A stretch of DNA of 64,000 nucleotides from an uncultured Pelagibacteraceae bacterium. Its GTDB lineage: Bacteria > Pseudomonadota > Alphaproteobacteria > Pelagibacterales > Pelagibacteraceae. Location of the stretch: NCBI GenBank assembly GCA_902628565.1, contig CACONR010000001.1, forward strand, positions 124,001 through 188,000. Direction: 5' to 3'. The notes under the pieces are model-generated. The model saw nothing but the letters and a program-made list of their open reading frames with translations, was not told the origin of the DNA and did not search any database. Positions 7,223-59,564 of the stretch are shown piece by piece. A program made the translations under genes and the position numbers. The stretch's first letter is position 1. Every line of letters begins with the position of its first letter.

Positions 7223-8074
7223 ATGAAGGCTATTACATTTAATCTTTTAGCGTGGGTAATGCTTCCAATTATGGATGGTTTTGCTAAATATTTAAGTGCA
7301 GAATTACCTGTATTGCAAATCACTTGGGCAAGATATTTTTTTACTGTGGCGTTCACTTTACCAATTATGTTTTTCTTTTTTCGAGAAAATCTTGTTTGGA
7401 CAGACAAACCGAGGCTACAATTTATAAGAGGCTTAATACTTTTAACAGCCAATATTTGTTTCTTTTATGCCATTTCAGTAATCTCTTTAGCAAAAGCATT
7501 AACTTTGGCATTTGTTGCACCTTTGATTGTCACAGCTTTTTCTCCAATTTTTTTAGGTGAGAAGGTTGGATTTAGAAGATGGTCAGCTGTAATTATAGGA
7601 TTTATAGGATCCTTGGTTGTTATAAGACCTGGTTTTGTAGAGATTAATTTAGCAAGTATTGCTGCGCTTGGAACAGGAATAATGTATGGATTTTATTTAA
7701 TTATTACTCGCAAGTTAAGTACTTCAGACAACCCTTTATTAACTTTATTGTTAACTGGTGTAGTAGGGGCTGTTATTATTTCATGTGTAATGCCTTTCGT
7801 TTGGATCAAGCCAACAATTAATCAGTGGTCAATGATGGCTGCTATTGGTGTATTTGCCTGCGTAGGTCATTTATTTCTAATATTATCTCTAAAATATGCT
7901 GATGCTTCAAAATTAGCTCCATTTAGTTACTTTGAGATCATCACAAACATAATTATAGGTTATTATTTCTTTAGTGATTTCCCTGATAATTGGACTTTCT
8001 TAGGTTTGTTTATTATTGTATTAAGTGGTATTTACATCTCAAGAAGAGAGAGCTTAGTAAAAAAAGTAAAATAA
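7223..8074 (+). CDS. EamA/DMT-superfamily transporter
   Basis: 283 residues, ten predicted helices in two five-helix EamA repeats (about residues 1-135 and 145-275). Seen motifs are the N-terminal LAWVMLPIMDGFAKYLSAELPVLQITWAR and, at the end of each repeat, LGEKVGFRRWSAVIIGFIGSLVVIRPG and its counterpart, followed by a positive tail. This is the drug/metabolite transporter superfamily (RhaT/YdcZ relatives). The substrate is not deducible. It starts 16 bases after the AEC gene on the same strand, so both may share a transcript. The reading of the first motif here is broken at LAWVMLPIMDG and FAKYLSAELPV. Confidence 0.87.
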   Translation: MKAITFNLLAWVMLPIMDGFAKYLSAELPVLQITWARYFFTVAFTLPIMFFFFRENLVWTDKPRLQFIRGLILLTANICFFYAISVISLAKALTLAFVAPLIVTAFSPIFLGEKVGFRRWSAVIIGFIGSLVVIRPGFVEINLASIAALGTGIMYGFYLIITRKLSTSDNPLLTLLLTGVVGAVIISCVMPFVWIKPTINQWSMMAAIGVFACVGHLFLILSLKYADASKLAPFSYFEIITNIIIGYYFFSDFPDNWTFLGLFIIVLSGIYISRRESLVKKVK

Positions 8075-8391
8075 TAGGTAATATTTATTTACTATTATTT
8101 AAAGTATTACATTAAGTATTTATTAAAAATAATTGTATTTATTATATTTTTTAAAATATAAATAATATAAATTTATAAATATTTTGGATTATTTAATATT
8201 AAAATCACCATAATATGTGCTGAAAGAGTAGAGATTTATAGTAAATTATGAAAAACATCAAATAACCCCTTAAAATAGGGACTTTTTCCGATTGCGGTTA
8301 TGAAAATTCCAAAAAAGTAGGGCAGTCTAAAAGCATTGATATAGTTGAATAATAGAGCGATGCACTAATTGAATATAGCATTTAAACGCCC

Positions 8392-8409
8392 ATAGAGGGG
8401 TCTATTTTT
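8392..8409 (+). terminator. possible small intrinsic terminator hairpin
   Basis: ATAGA (8392-8396), loop GGGG (8397-8400) and TCTAT (8401-8405) form a perfect 5-bp stem followed by four further T residues. It is short and A/T-rich, so it would be weak. If real, it ends a transcript coming from the left, either read-through from the transporter genes or a small RNA in the gap. Confidence 0.3.
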
Positions 8410-8447
8410 CGTGTATGCTAATATATGGTACAACTGAAGGGTGAATT

Positions 8448-8492
8448 ATGTTATTTAGAGAGAAATCTCGCAAAAAAGTAAAAAAGCATTAA
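8448..8492 (+). CDS. possible 14-residue basic micro-ORF
   Basis: ATG at 8448 reads MLFREKSRKKVKKH and stops at TAA 8490-8492. AAGGGTG sits 4 bases before the ATG, a good ribosome site in a genome where such sites are often weak. Seven of 14 residues are lysine or arginine. A frame this short arises easily by chance, and I know of no family. It is listed only because of the well-placed ribosome site inside an otherwise empty gap. Confidence 0.15.
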   Translation: MLFREKSRKKVKKH

Positions 8493-8533
8493 TTTTACTC
8501 ACTTTTTTAACTTAAAAAAATTTTAAAATAGCG

Positions 8534-8809
8534 TTAAATAGCTACTTTTTCAGATCTTAGTAATCTAAGCTTTTGCCTGATTCCACCTCTACCAGAGTAA
8601 CCTCCAAGAGCTCCATCAGATCTAATCACTCTATGACAAGGTATTTTTGGAGCATATGGGTTTTCAGCACAAGCATTAGCCACAGCTCTGGCTGATTTAG
8701 GGCTGTTTATAGCAGCTGCAACTTGTTTATATGTTCTTATTTTACCTTTTGGTATAGTTTTAAGGTATTTCCAGACTTTTAATTGAAATTTAGTGCCTTT
8801 AAGATGCAT
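8534..8809 (-). CDS. ogt: one-domain methylated-DNA-cysteine methyltransferase (MGMT/Ogt)
   Basis: 91 residues that cover only the C-terminal DNA-binding/active domain of O6-alkylguanine-DNA alkyltransferases. FQLKVWKYLKTIPKGKIRTY opens the domain. The recognition helix holds SARAVANACAENP with the arginine finger, and the acceptor cysteine Cys58 is in IPCHRVI, so it is not an alkyltransferase-like (Cys-less) protein. GGYSGRGGIRQKLRLL completes the family pattern. Standard Ogt/Ada proteins have an extra N-terminal domain of about 70 residues. Here an in-frame TAA lies two codons before the ATG, so no longer form exists. A GC-rich, RNA-like stretch lies directly upstream on the same strand. 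Confidence 0.88.
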   Translation of the reverse strand: MHLKGTKFQLKVWKYLKTIPKGKIRTYKQVAAAINSPKSARAVANACAENPYAPKIPCHRVIRSDGALGGYSGRGGIRQKLRLLRSEKVAI

Positions 8810-8821
8810 TTTTTACTAGAA

Positions 8822-8999
8822 ACCCCTGTTTCCTTGCACTTTTAAGGGTGCAAAGAACAGTTGTTTTGGCACGTCGTTGATGCGCTACCGCCATGCCTCC
8901 CGTTCTACATGTTCAGCGATGCTTTGCAGAACTTTCTGCCCCTTGGATTTGTACCTCTCGGCTTTTGCCCAATTGGCCAGTTAAGGGTTGCCCCTTAAT
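8822..8999. ncRNA. GC-rich candidate structured RNA, strand uncertain
   Basis: By hand count about 49% G+C over 180 bases, against roughly 30% around it, with no sustained reading frame. It can form several hairpins in a row: CTGTT..AACAG enclosing TTGCAC (8834-8839)/GTGCAA (8848-8853); GGCACG (8868-8873)/CATGCC (8892-8897, one wobble on the minus strand); GCAGA/TCTGC around a tetraloop (8926-8939); and TTAAGGG/CCCTTAA (8981-8998). Read on the minus strand the last has a GCAA (GNRA) tetraloop, which favours that strand and would place it as a leader or small RNA just before ogt. I do not recognise it as tmRNA, SRP RNA, RNase P RNA or 6S RNA. Confidence 0.55.
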
Positions 9000-9093
9000 T
9001 CATTTATACATTAACAGATATGATTTTAGAGCTGTATCACCTTTTAATTGATTCTTAAAATTTACAGAAATTCATGTGAATATTGGGGATAAA

Positions 9094-9270
9094 TCAAGCT
9101 TTGAAAACTAAGATAAAATAGCTAATTAAAAATAAGATTGCCAAAATAGATAAAAAAATAGTCTCAATGCTTTTGCCATGATTTTTATATTGAATTGAAC
9201 TTAGAATAATAAATCCTACGGAAGTAATTAAAAACCATACAGCAGGAATTTCTCCATCTATTGAACCCAT
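9094..9270 (-). CDS. 58-residue two-helix membrane protein, unknown function
   Basis: ATG at 9270 to TGA at 9094. The product begins MGSIDGEIPAVWFLITSVGF and has two hydrophobic helices (about residues 10-26 and 37-56) joined by a polar, positively charged loop (QYKNHGKSIE). No known motif is present and no clear ribosome site precedes it. A frame with two clean transmembrane segments, a charged loop between them and a plausible start is more than chance usually gives in A/T-rich DNA, but the call rests on that alone. It lies between the RNA-like element and the recombinase, in the accessory part of the window. Confidence 0.5.
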   Translation of the reverse strand: MGSIDGEIPAVWFLITSVGFIILSSIQYKNHGKSIETIFLSILAILFLISYFILVFKA

Positions 9271-9288
9271 AAATTTATATTTAAACTA

Positions 9289-9317
9289 TTGACATTAAAA
9301 ATCACTTGATATATTAC
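9289..9317 (+). promoter_or_regulatory. possible promoter of the recombinase gene
   Basis: TTGACA (9289-9294) is a perfect -35 hexamer. TATATT (9310-9315, spacing 15) or TATTAC (9312-9317, spacing 17) can serve as -10. The start of transcription would fall near 9322, inside the inverted repeat at 9321-9339 and about 30 bases before the recombinase ATG. Confidence 0.45.
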
Positions 9318-9320
9318 TAA

Positions 9321-9339
9321 TGATAATTAATTGTTATCA
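9321..9339. promoter_or_regulatory. inverted repeat at the recombinase promoter, operator-like
   Basis: TGATAA (9321-9326) and TTATCA (9334-9339) are perfect inverted copies separated by 7 bases. The repeat covers the expected transcription start of the recombinase gene, the usual place for a repressor site. Its half-sites resemble Fur boxes (GATAAT type), but A/T-rich palindromes are common here. The regulator is unknown. Confidence 0.35.
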
Positions 9340-9350
9340 ATAGTAATTAT

Positions 9351-10304
9351 ATGAGTGAACTTACAACAGACCTTAAATCACTTCATGAGGCAACTCTTAA
9401 AAATCTAAAAAGTTCAAAAGCAAATAACACTTTAAGAGCATATAAATCAGACTTTAGGGATTTTGGAGCTTTTTGTGCTAAGCACGGCTTTAACTCATTA
9501 CCATCAGAGCCAAAAATAGTTTCTTTATACCTTACGCACCTTTCTAAGAATTCAAAAATAAGCACTATAAGAAGAAGATTAGTGTCAATTAGCATGGTTC
9601 ATAAATTAAAAGGGCATTATATCGATACAAAACATCCAATTATTGTTGAAAATTTAATGGGTATAAGAAGGGTAAAAGGAAGTATTCAAAAAGGTAAAAA
9701 ACCTTTATTAATCAATCATTTAAAATCTATAATTAATGTAATTAATGAACAAAAAATTGAGGATGTAAAGAAATTTAGAGATAAGTCATTAATACTAGTT
9801 GGCTTTGGAGGTGGATTTAGACGAACTGAACTAATTTCGATTGATTATGAAGATTTAGAATTTGTGCCTGAAGGACTCAAAATAACTATTAAAAGATCAA
9901 AAACCGATCAATTCGGTGAAGGAATGATCAAAGGACTACCCTACTTCACTAATGAAACATATTGTCCAATTGTCAATCTAAAAAAATGGTTAGAAATTTC
10001 TAGAATTAAATCTGGACCAATTTTTAGAAAATTTTCTAAAGGTTCATCTTTAACTGACAAAAGATTAACCGATCAATCAGTAGTATTACTAATGAAAGAA
10101 TATTTAAATCTAGCAGGTATAGAAAATAAAAATTTTGCAGGTCATAGTTTAAGATCTGGTTTTGCTACTGTCGCTGCTGAGTCTGGTGCTGATGAACGTA
10201 GTATTATGGCAATGACTGGTCACAAAACAACACAAATGGTTAGAAGATACATTAGGGAAGCAAATATATTTAAAAACAATGCATTAAATAAAATTAAGAT
10301 TTAA
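9351..10304 (+). CDS. tyrosine recombinase / phage-type integrase
   Basis: 317 residues. An N-terminal SAM-like core-binding domain (about 10-105, NTLRAYKSDFRDFGAFCAKH) is followed by the catalytic domain. The full active set is visible: Arg in GFGGGFRRTELISI, Lys in IKRSKTDQFGEG, His-x-x-Arg in GHSLRSGFATVAA, His in MTGHKTTQMV and the nucleophile Tyr in RRYIREA. It could be a XerC/XerD-like enzyme or an integrase of a mobile element. The N-terminal region and neighbours (glycosyltransferase, GIY-YIG protein, tRNA-Glu) fit an island enzyme better than the housekeeping Xer pair. No matching attachment repeats were found. It converges with the glycosyltransferase gene, 5 bases apart. Confidence 0.92.
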   Translation: MSELTTDLKSLHEATLKNLKSSKANNTLRAYKSDFRDFGAFCAKHGFNSLPSEPKIVSLYLTHLSKNSKISTIRRRLVSISMVHKLKGHYIDTKHPIIVENLMGIRRVKGSIQKGKKPLLINHLKSIINVINEQKIEDVKKFRDKSLILVGFGGGFRRTELISIDYEDLEFVPEGLKITIKRSKTDQFGEGMIKGLPYFTNETYCPIVNLKKWLEISRIKSGPIFRKFSKGSSLTDKRLTDQSVVLLMKEYLNLAGIENKNFAGHSLRSGFATVAAESGADERSIMAMTGHKTTQMVRRYIREANIFKNNALNKIKI

Positions 10305-58190: not shown

Positions 58191-59564
58191 TTATAAAAAA
58201 TAAGCCCCAACACCTAAAAAAGAAACAAAACCTATTACATCAGTTATTGTTGTTACGAAAACACTAGAGGCAATTGCTGGATCAATTTTCATTTTTTTTA
58301 ATGTGACTGGAACAAGTATTCCAAATAAACCTGCCACTACCATTGTCAAAATCATTGAGATCGATATTATTAATGATAATTGGTAATCTTGAAACCAGAC
58401 TTGGACGATAAAAGAACTTATAATAGCAAAAATTATTCCATTGAGAATACCAATATTAAATTCCTTAATAATGTTTTGATTAAAGTTATTTTTAGTTAAA
58501 TCATTTGTTGCTAAAGTTCTAACAGTAACTGCTAAAGTTTGCATACCTGCATTACCACCCATCGATGCAACTATTGGCATTAAAAATGCCAAGACAACCA
58601 TTTGTTCAATTGTTGCACCAAACAAACTAATACAATAGGTAGCCAGAAATGCTGTGAATAAGTTTAATAGTAACCAGTTAAATCGTCTTTTAGTTTTTGT
58701 GATAACACCATCTGTAATTTCTTCATCACCAACACCAGCTAACCTTAAAGCATCTTCCTCAGCCTCTTCTTTTAAAACTGTTAATACATCATCGGAAGTT
58801 ATCATTCCTACAAGTTTATTATTTTTATCTACAACACAAGCTGAGTTTAAATTGTAATTTTCAAATGAATTACCAACTTCTTCTCTATCCATATCCACTG
58901 GAACTAAAAAAATTGAATCATCCATAATTGAGGACATTTTTGTTTCTCTAGGTGTTCTTAATACTTTAGAGGATGGTACAGCACCAATAGGTTTAAAATT
59001 TTCATCAACAATGTAAATTTCTAAAAATTCTTCTGGTAAGTCTTTATTCTCTCTTAAATAATCAATAGTTTGTCCTACCAACCAGTTACTTGGGATTGCT
59101 GTAAATTCTCTTTGCATTATCCTAGCAGCACTATCCTCTGGATAACTAAGACCTTCTAATAAAGCAAATCGATCTTTTGGGGGTAATAAACTTAATATTG
59201 AATTTTTATCTTTTTCTTCAACATTTTCTAAAATAGCAATGGCATCATCAGACTCTAAATTTTTTAAAATCCTAACAATTGCATCTGAGGAAAGATATTT
59301 AATGATTTCTGATTGAACAGACTCGTTTAATTCAACAAATACTTCTGGATCAATCTTAAAATTATTTAATTTTATTAAACTTTCTCTGTCATTTTCACTT
59401 AAATGCTCAATAATATCAGCAGCATCAGCGGGATGCATTTCCTCAAAAGATCTAGTTATAAAAGATGCATCATTTGAGGTAATTTTGTCTGTTACAACTT
59501 TTATATATTCCTTATTAAATTCAAAATTGACTTTTTTATCTTTAATTTTTTTTATTAAAGTCAT
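58191..59564 (-). CDS. mgtE: magnesium transporter MgtE
   Basis: 457 residues. The N-terminal helical domain includes MHPADAADIIEHLSENDRES. It is followed by two CBS domains (about 140-260), a plug helix and five membrane helices at the end, with FLMPIVASMGGNAGMQT and the DPAIASSVFVTTITDVIGF selectivity region. It is a magnesium-gated channel. Its stop lies 4 bases after the panC end (convergent). Confidence 0.96.
   Translation of the reverse strand: MTLIKKIKDKKVNFEFNKEYIKVVTDKITSNDASFITRSFEEMHPADAADIIEHLSENDRESLIKLNNFKIDPEVFVELNESVQSEIIKYLSSDAIVRILKNLESDDAIAILENVEEKDKNSILSLLPPKDRFALLEGLSYPEDSAARIMQREFTAIPSNWLVGQTIDYLRENKDLPEEFLEIYIVDENFKPIGAVPSSKVLRTPRETKMSSIMDDSIFLVPVDMDREEVGNSFENYNLNSACVVDKNNKLVGMITSDDVLTVLKEEAEEDALRLAGVGDEEITDGVITKTKRRFNWLLLNLFTAFLATYCISLFGATIEQMVVLAFLMPIVASMGGNAGMQTLAVTVRTLATNDLTKNNFNQNIIKEFNIGILNGIIFAIISSFIVQVWFQDYQLSLIISISMILTMVVAGLFGILVPVTLKKMKIDPAIASSVFVTTITDVIGFVSFLGVGAYFL

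Follow-up and report, generated by a model that had tools for sequence, protein, structure and literature searches.

The GC-rich element at positions 8822 to 8999 of the window, the 64,000-nt stretch of Pelagibacteraceae DNA analyzed here, is a real, structured, and conserved member of a catalogued RNA family, IMES-2. A cmscan search of the whole window against Rfam 15 detected a full-length match to RF02035 (IMES-2) on the minus strand from 9005 to 8866, which covered model positions 1 to 141 with an E value of 5.8e-37 and a score of 142.6 bits, above the curated gathering threshold of 54.7 bits. An initial reading of this DNA from its letters alone (the sequence-only reading) had held that no known RNA explained the element, a statement contradicted by this match, and had advised an Rfam search that included the IMES families and 6S RNA; this search recovered IMES-2, while 6S RNA (RF00013) gave no match. 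In a permissive Rfam scan of 8050 to 9360, no family besides IMES-2 was detected at E values of up to 1. The modelled 5′ end of the RNA, at 9005, lies just beyond the limits originally given to the element. IMES-2 is said to have been first described by Weinberg et al. in 2009 and, reportedly, was found in that discovery paper to be expressed as an abundant RNA.

Several properties that had been noted by eye were reproduced by calculation. The G+C content of the element is 0.500, in comparison with 0.287 for the window, and only 10 of 63,822 segments of 178 nt, all with starts at 8815 to 8824, reach this value, making the element the single GC peak of the 64 kb. The minus strand between 8815 and 9010 had a minimum free energy of −64.5 kcal/mol, relative to −49.3 (standard deviation, 3.8) for shuffled sequences (z = −4.0; 0 of 200 as good), while the plus strand hardly departed from its shuffles (z = −1.7; 10 of 200 as good). 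On this strand the proposed GNRA (GCAA) tetraloop is present as AAGGG-GCAA-CCCUU within 8998 to 8981. The lack of a surviving reading frame was also confirmed, as no open reading frame of at least 60 amino acids overlaps the element, and the adjoining ogt gene starts on the same strand at 8809 with the T-poor sequence TTTCTAG, rather than a T run, in between. A terminator scan of 8700 to 9360 found none. Elsewhere in the window, a SAM-V riboswitch (RF01826; 83 bits) was detected at 2639 to 2705 on the minus strand.

Table 1. Features of the IMES-2 locus and its neighbors in the window
Feature	Positions	Strand	Basis
IMES-2 RNA core (Rfam RF02035)	8866..9005	-	cmscan, 142.6 bits; also recovered by genome search
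Helix P1, with GCAA tetraloop	8981..8998	-	Rfam structure; 99.9% of A2 cells paired, 5/7 pairs changed on both sides
Helices P2 and P2b	8936..8980	-	94.3% and 92.7% of A2 cells paired; 9/11 and 4/4 pairs changed on both sides
Helix P3, loop kisses P4	8902..8932	-	Outer helix 99.1% paired, 6/6 pairs changed on both sides
Helix P4, loop kisses P3	8868..8897	-	88.8% of cells paired, 5/9 pairs changed on both sides
Kissing helix, loop-3 half	8914..8918	-	Partner 8883-8887; comparative and window sequence
Kissing helix, loop-4 half	8883..8887	-	Partner 8914-8918; comparative
3′ hairpin, terminator-like in relatives	8823..8863	-	Minimum free energy structure; T run weak in window copy
Proposed −10 element TGTTAATGT	9008..9016	-	Position relative to model start; by eye across relatives
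Proposed −35 element GGTGAT (AGTGAT in most relatives)	9036..9041	-	Comparative
Tandem 9-mers TTATCCCCA then ATATTCACA, proposed protein site	9075..9092	-	Spacing classes in 98/99 loci
ogt (6-O-methylguanine DNA methyltransferase, DNA-binding domain), neighbor outside RNA gene	8534..8809	-	PF01035, 113.1 bits
58-codon hydrophobic open reading frame, upstream neighbor outside RNA gene	9094..9270	-	Read from sequence

Two alignments of the family were utilized for examining the helices. In the first (A1; 30 rows), 94.0% of the cells paired, in comparison with 79.1% in shuffled alignments and a maximum of 41.3% in slid ones, and 31 of 44 pairs had changed on both sides; the alifold energy was −42 relative to −1.1 (standard deviation, 1.2) in alignments with shuffled columns, none of 100 being as low. 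The second (A2), with 100 rows, 99 of them distinct, was fitted to the nested model rather than to the kissing helix; 94.7% of its cells were paired, and both sides had changed in 33 of its 45 pairs (39 in the nested helices plus 6 in the kissing helix). The compensatory changes by which the stems were to be judged were, hence, found in both alignments, and the nested helices are conserved across A2, with one of the nine P4 pairs, as mapped from Rfam, never being standard. A 3′ hairpin follows the RNA in those loci of relatives that were inspected by eye, its sequence differing between genera, and a run of at least five T residues occurs within 75 nt after the RNA in 71 of 98 loci, being absent from the window and its near relative L017.

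Comparative evidence supports a probable further interaction, a loop-loop kissing helix additional to the nested pairs of the Rfam model. Complementary hexamers, GCGCUA and UAGCGC, occupy the P3 and P4 loops; in the window, the helix consists of five pairs, including one G-U, and the sixth consensus pair is missing. When this helix was considered alone, 98.1% of the cells were paired, in comparison with a maximum of 53.6% for slid and 96.2% for shuffled alignments, the latter value being high because the loops are well conserved. In total, 11 double-changed cells were counted, whereas shuffles gave 0.6 and none of the 500 reached 11. These comprised C-G to U-A in four rows (g1, g8, g9, and g12) and G-C to A-U in seven rows (g5, g8, g9, and g11), such that the compensatory changes span six genera. 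Two other measures were less discriminating: further pair types showed no excess over shuffles, all 500 of which scored as high, and the number of pairs changed on both sides was reached in 33 of 500 shuffles. Loop 3 variants that have lost their palindromic character retain complementarity to loop 4, which favors pairing between the two loops over dimers formed by loop 3.

Homologues of the element, the second test proposed in the sequence-only reading, were abundant. Among near relatives, 21 of 61 matched RF02035; across the order, 200 of 397 genomes did so (75 of 151 for the more complete genomes), each of the 200 with exactly one match. All 200 belong to one family (f1) and to genera g1, g5, g8, g9, g11, and g12. 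A class-level draw of 385 genomes yielded three matches, namely, G000 and two genomes of the same family, and, among the matches listed, the named carriers were marine bacteria of the Pelagibacteraceae or Pelagibacterales. Loci that fitted a sequence pattern and were titled as being from outside SAR11 (23 of 119 among those listed) were attributed to chance, as none scored higher than 12.1 bits against the model. To look for hidden divergent copies, we constructed a broader model, R1, and applied it to 33 genomes that RF02035 did not match (24 of g1 and 9 of family f2); hits occurred in 8 genomes at 9.7 to 15.6 bits with E values of 0.24 or worse, and manual reading placed the best four at the 3′ terminus of a coding frame. 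At the sensitivity of R1, the absence of IMES-2 from these 33 genomes is real. Mapped onto a 64-row ogt tree, the presence of IMES-2 requires at least 3 changes, relative to a mean of 12.0 for shuffled labels, and well-supported branches force only one change; the tree was derived from 264 nt and comprised 51 rows with IMES-2 (ogt is adjacent at 61 loci) and 13 of the 14 rows without it, L206 having been missed. L204 and L205, near relatives of the window, lack IMES-2. We read this distribution as probable repeated loss.

Upstream of the RNA, comparison of 99 loci, many of them from close relatives and, hence, non-independent, indicated a candidate control region. A −35-like element of the form [AG]G[ATC]GAT was present in 99 of 99 loci at 31 to 40 nt before the first model base, this being the only range that the script examined. 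With a stricter pattern (AG[TAC]GAT) and a range of 10 to 70 nt, the element was found in 87 of 99 loci, always at 34 to 37 nt, the window being among the 12 missed. Measured from its first base, the tandem 18-mer was 38 bp from the −35-like element in 1 locus, 40 to 42 bp in 35 loci, and 49 to 52 bp in 63 loci and was never 43 to 48 bp away; without a range limit near those distances, 84 of 87 loci fell into the two classes, with one at 38 bp and two at 121 to 122 bp. As the two spacings are about one helical turn apart, they suggest that a bound protein has to face the polymerase. The mean best score of the 9-mers was 14.5 of 17 versus 10.0 in shuffled letters, with a score of 9, the level of chance, in L144 and L166, two loci among the 63 with long spacing. 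With at most one mismatch, the 18-mer occurred once in G000 and was found in only 3 of 20 g1 genomes, indicating that its exact sequence varies. The abutting 9-mers of the window resemble the DnaA box, the consensus of which is TTATNCACA. A generic promoter scan of the window did not select the proposed −35/−10 promoter. Use of the promoter element as the mark of a regulon was rejected, with 148 hits relative to 190 for a reversed control in 24 genomes and a pattern that misses the window's own copy; the −35-like element by itself showed no enrichment over such a control.

The genes flanking the RNA differ between genera. In the 99 loci, ogt followed the RNA in 61, mnmA preceded it in 33, and a nuclease gene preceded it in 3; of the 2 unassigned loci, one is that of g11 and the other is too close to the end of its contig. 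In g1, ogt comes after the RNA; elsewhere, the RNA is flanked by mnmA and a gene for a membrane protein in g8, g9, and g12, by a thermonuclease-like and an SRAP-like gene in g5, and by selO and rmuC in g11, the neighbors in these five latter genera having been named by manual reading of translations rather than by a family search. Where RNA and ogt were both located on one contig in such genomes, they were 165 to 212 kb apart, at 59,304 and 271,897 in G128, 303,459 and 125,095 in G061, 1,211,235 and 1,046,387 in G064, and 27,730 and 190,723 in G344, respectively. It is well supported, on these comparative grounds, that IMES-2 is probably its own transcription unit, because the 9-mers, the −35- and −10-like elements, and the RNA stay together while the neighboring genes change. 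From among the three origins offered in the sequence-only reading, a stand-alone small RNA is thus the best supported; a leader of ogt does not fit the loci of other genera, and an imported element lacks support, there being one match per genome, six carrier genera within one family, and no match to IMES-2 at an E value of 0.01 in 50,697 phage records. Neither multiple copies in the 200 genomes nor, in one phage search and one pattern scan of viral sequences, a viral presence was observed; three pattern hits in viral contigs were regarded as chance, having no match to the model at an E value of 10.

Other features of the surroundings were recorded. The 58-codon open reading frame had no Pfam match. 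A tyrosine recombinase gene (PF00589) lies near the RNA at 9351 to 10304 on the plus strand, and such a gene is also found near the IMES-2 loci L005, L007, and L009. In L007 (1603 to 1971) and L009 (1612 to 1962), with positions counted in the reoriented loci, the ogt frame continues upstream, still open, into the RNA's 3′ half, giving 122 and 116 codons; this extension looks like chance, the frame in the window being 91 amino acids long. A second conserved noncoding block is present at 8311 to 8445 (core, 8371 to 8435), between ogt and a transporter gene, with the pattern AGTTGYAC ... GACCCCTCTATGG.CGTTTAAA ... ATATTC ... TGCA. Its length is almost unchanged over 40 loci with and without IMES-2, and a similar stretch follows ogt in g8 (L219). 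No consensus RNA fold on either strand and no Rfam match were detected for this block, which is more like a DNA site, either a promoter or a recombination site. A very AT-rich stretch (8050 to 8199; 9.3% G+C) adjoins both conserved noncoding blocks.

We lean toward the reading that IMES-2 is a stand-alone RNA, with a kissing helix and a co-travelling control region, that acts in trans via a bound protein. A sigma-70-type promoter would initiate transcription close to 9005, assisted by a protein bound to the tandem 9-mers, whose position on one face of the DNA helix would be preserved. A discrete RNA of ∼180 nt would be made and would fold into a compact body in which the two largest loops pair with each other. 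This RNA would then act in trans, with a protein or ribonucleoprotein as its binding partner, in the role of a decoy, scaffold, or structural RNA. Action through a bound protein is favored over antisense pairing on the basis of the predicted structure and gene content, because most of the body is paired, the large loops are paired with each other, and Hfq was not found by a Pfam model in any of nine SAR11-order genomes (the controls, Escherichia coli and Caulobacter, were positive). A more far-reaching version, to which we assign little credence, makes IMES-2 a global regulator particular to the SAR11 lineage, in which neither Hfq nor, with the Rfam model, 6S RNA was detected here: a kissing-locked RNA, whose promoter would be driven by a growth-state protein, DnaA or some other, bound at the 9-mers, would titrate a core protein machine, and its repeated loss would mark a different growth strategy.

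The main rival is an antisense small RNA that base-pairs with mRNAs. The size and stand-alone layout of IMES-2 fit such a role, and Hfq-independent small RNAs exist, such that the absence of Hfq may be compatible with it; the same three observations that favor a bound protein, however, count against antisense action and make it rather unlikely. A 6S-like RNA that binds RNA polymerase would be of similar size, 6S RNA being likewise a stand-alone structured RNA, and would act where 6S RNA itself is undetected. The Rfam 6S model matched 0 of 25 SAR11-order genomes, with a positive Caulobacter control, which may leave room for this role, divergent 6S RNAs being of a kind that this model could miss. 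Against it, 6S RNA forms one long rod with a central bubble and IMES-2 consists of several hairpins and a kissing helix; moreover, 6S RNA is also missing where IMES-2 is missing, so that the two do not replace each other, and we regard this role as very unlikely.

The remaining rivals tie the element to the DNA around it. As a cis-acting leader or attenuator, the RNA and its 3′ hairpin would control read-through into ogt, as might be expected from the predominance of ogt as the following gene and from the hairpin of the window, which ends 14 nt before the ogt start and leaves little room for a separate ogt promoter. Other genes adjoin the RNA in g8, g9, g12, g5, and g11, however, with ogt elsewhere where it was located; the T run present after most hairpins also argues against read-through, and in the IMES-2-less loci L204 to L206 a similar small hydrophobic open reading frame precedes ogt at a distance of a few bases, and the RNA is absent from this gap. 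A leader function was, therefore, rejected as a general role, the site upstream of ogt being constant in only 61 of 99 loci, and as an explanation of IMES-2 it is quite unlikely; a cis effect on ogt in the genus of the window is possible given the close spacing. The 9-mers could alternatively be DnaA boxes of a replication origin of which IMES-2 forms a part or to which it is tied. Besides the resemblance of the 9-mers to the DnaA-box consensus, two of the four exact copies of TTATCCACA in the G128 genome are ∼3.4 kb from IMES-2, but no such boxes are near IMES-2 in G061, G083, or G068, and the GC skew of G068, sampled over 305 of 1,379 kb, has no clear switch at IMES-2. A link to the origin is, hence, extremely unlikely, and DnaA may exert transcriptional control without oriC. 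The preferred reading is that of a protein-bound, trans-acting RNA.

IMES-2 is a catalogued family from some of the most abundant bacteria of the ocean, and we know of no explanation of its function. Within the literature collection searched, no paper addressed this function, and the term "IMES" is absent from the available main text of PMC3607601, PMC3840354, PMC12678497, PMC5069720, and PMC2864571. To the nested helices of the Rfam model, the present analysis adds the probable kissing helix, an upstream tandem site with two spacings, a 3′ hairpin, and changing genomic positions, and it closes a false lead in that IMES-2 is in general no riboregulator of ogt. The kissing helix, a helically phased cassette amid changing neighbors, and absence from near relatives open this marine RNA to testable questions, namely, which partner the RNA binds, which factor recognizes the tandem site, and how lineages without IMES-2 differ.

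With respect to known systems, the GC-rich intergenic regions of "Candidatus Pelagibacter ubique" HTCC1062 were screened by Meyer et al. (2009; PMC2704228) by the same logic as that which drew attention to this element in an AT-rich SAR11 genome. The candidates in the available part of that article are tmRNA, signal recognition particle RNA, RNase P RNA, riboswitches, and leader motifs and differ from IMES-2 in including no ogt-adjacent RNA. The 6S RNA family (RF00013) differs in architecture, in having no match to the element of the window, and in being undetected in all 25 SAR11-order genomes. The window copy has nothing that breaks membership of IMES-2 (RF02035): it contains all of the nested helices of the model, and its SAR11 relatives score similarly.
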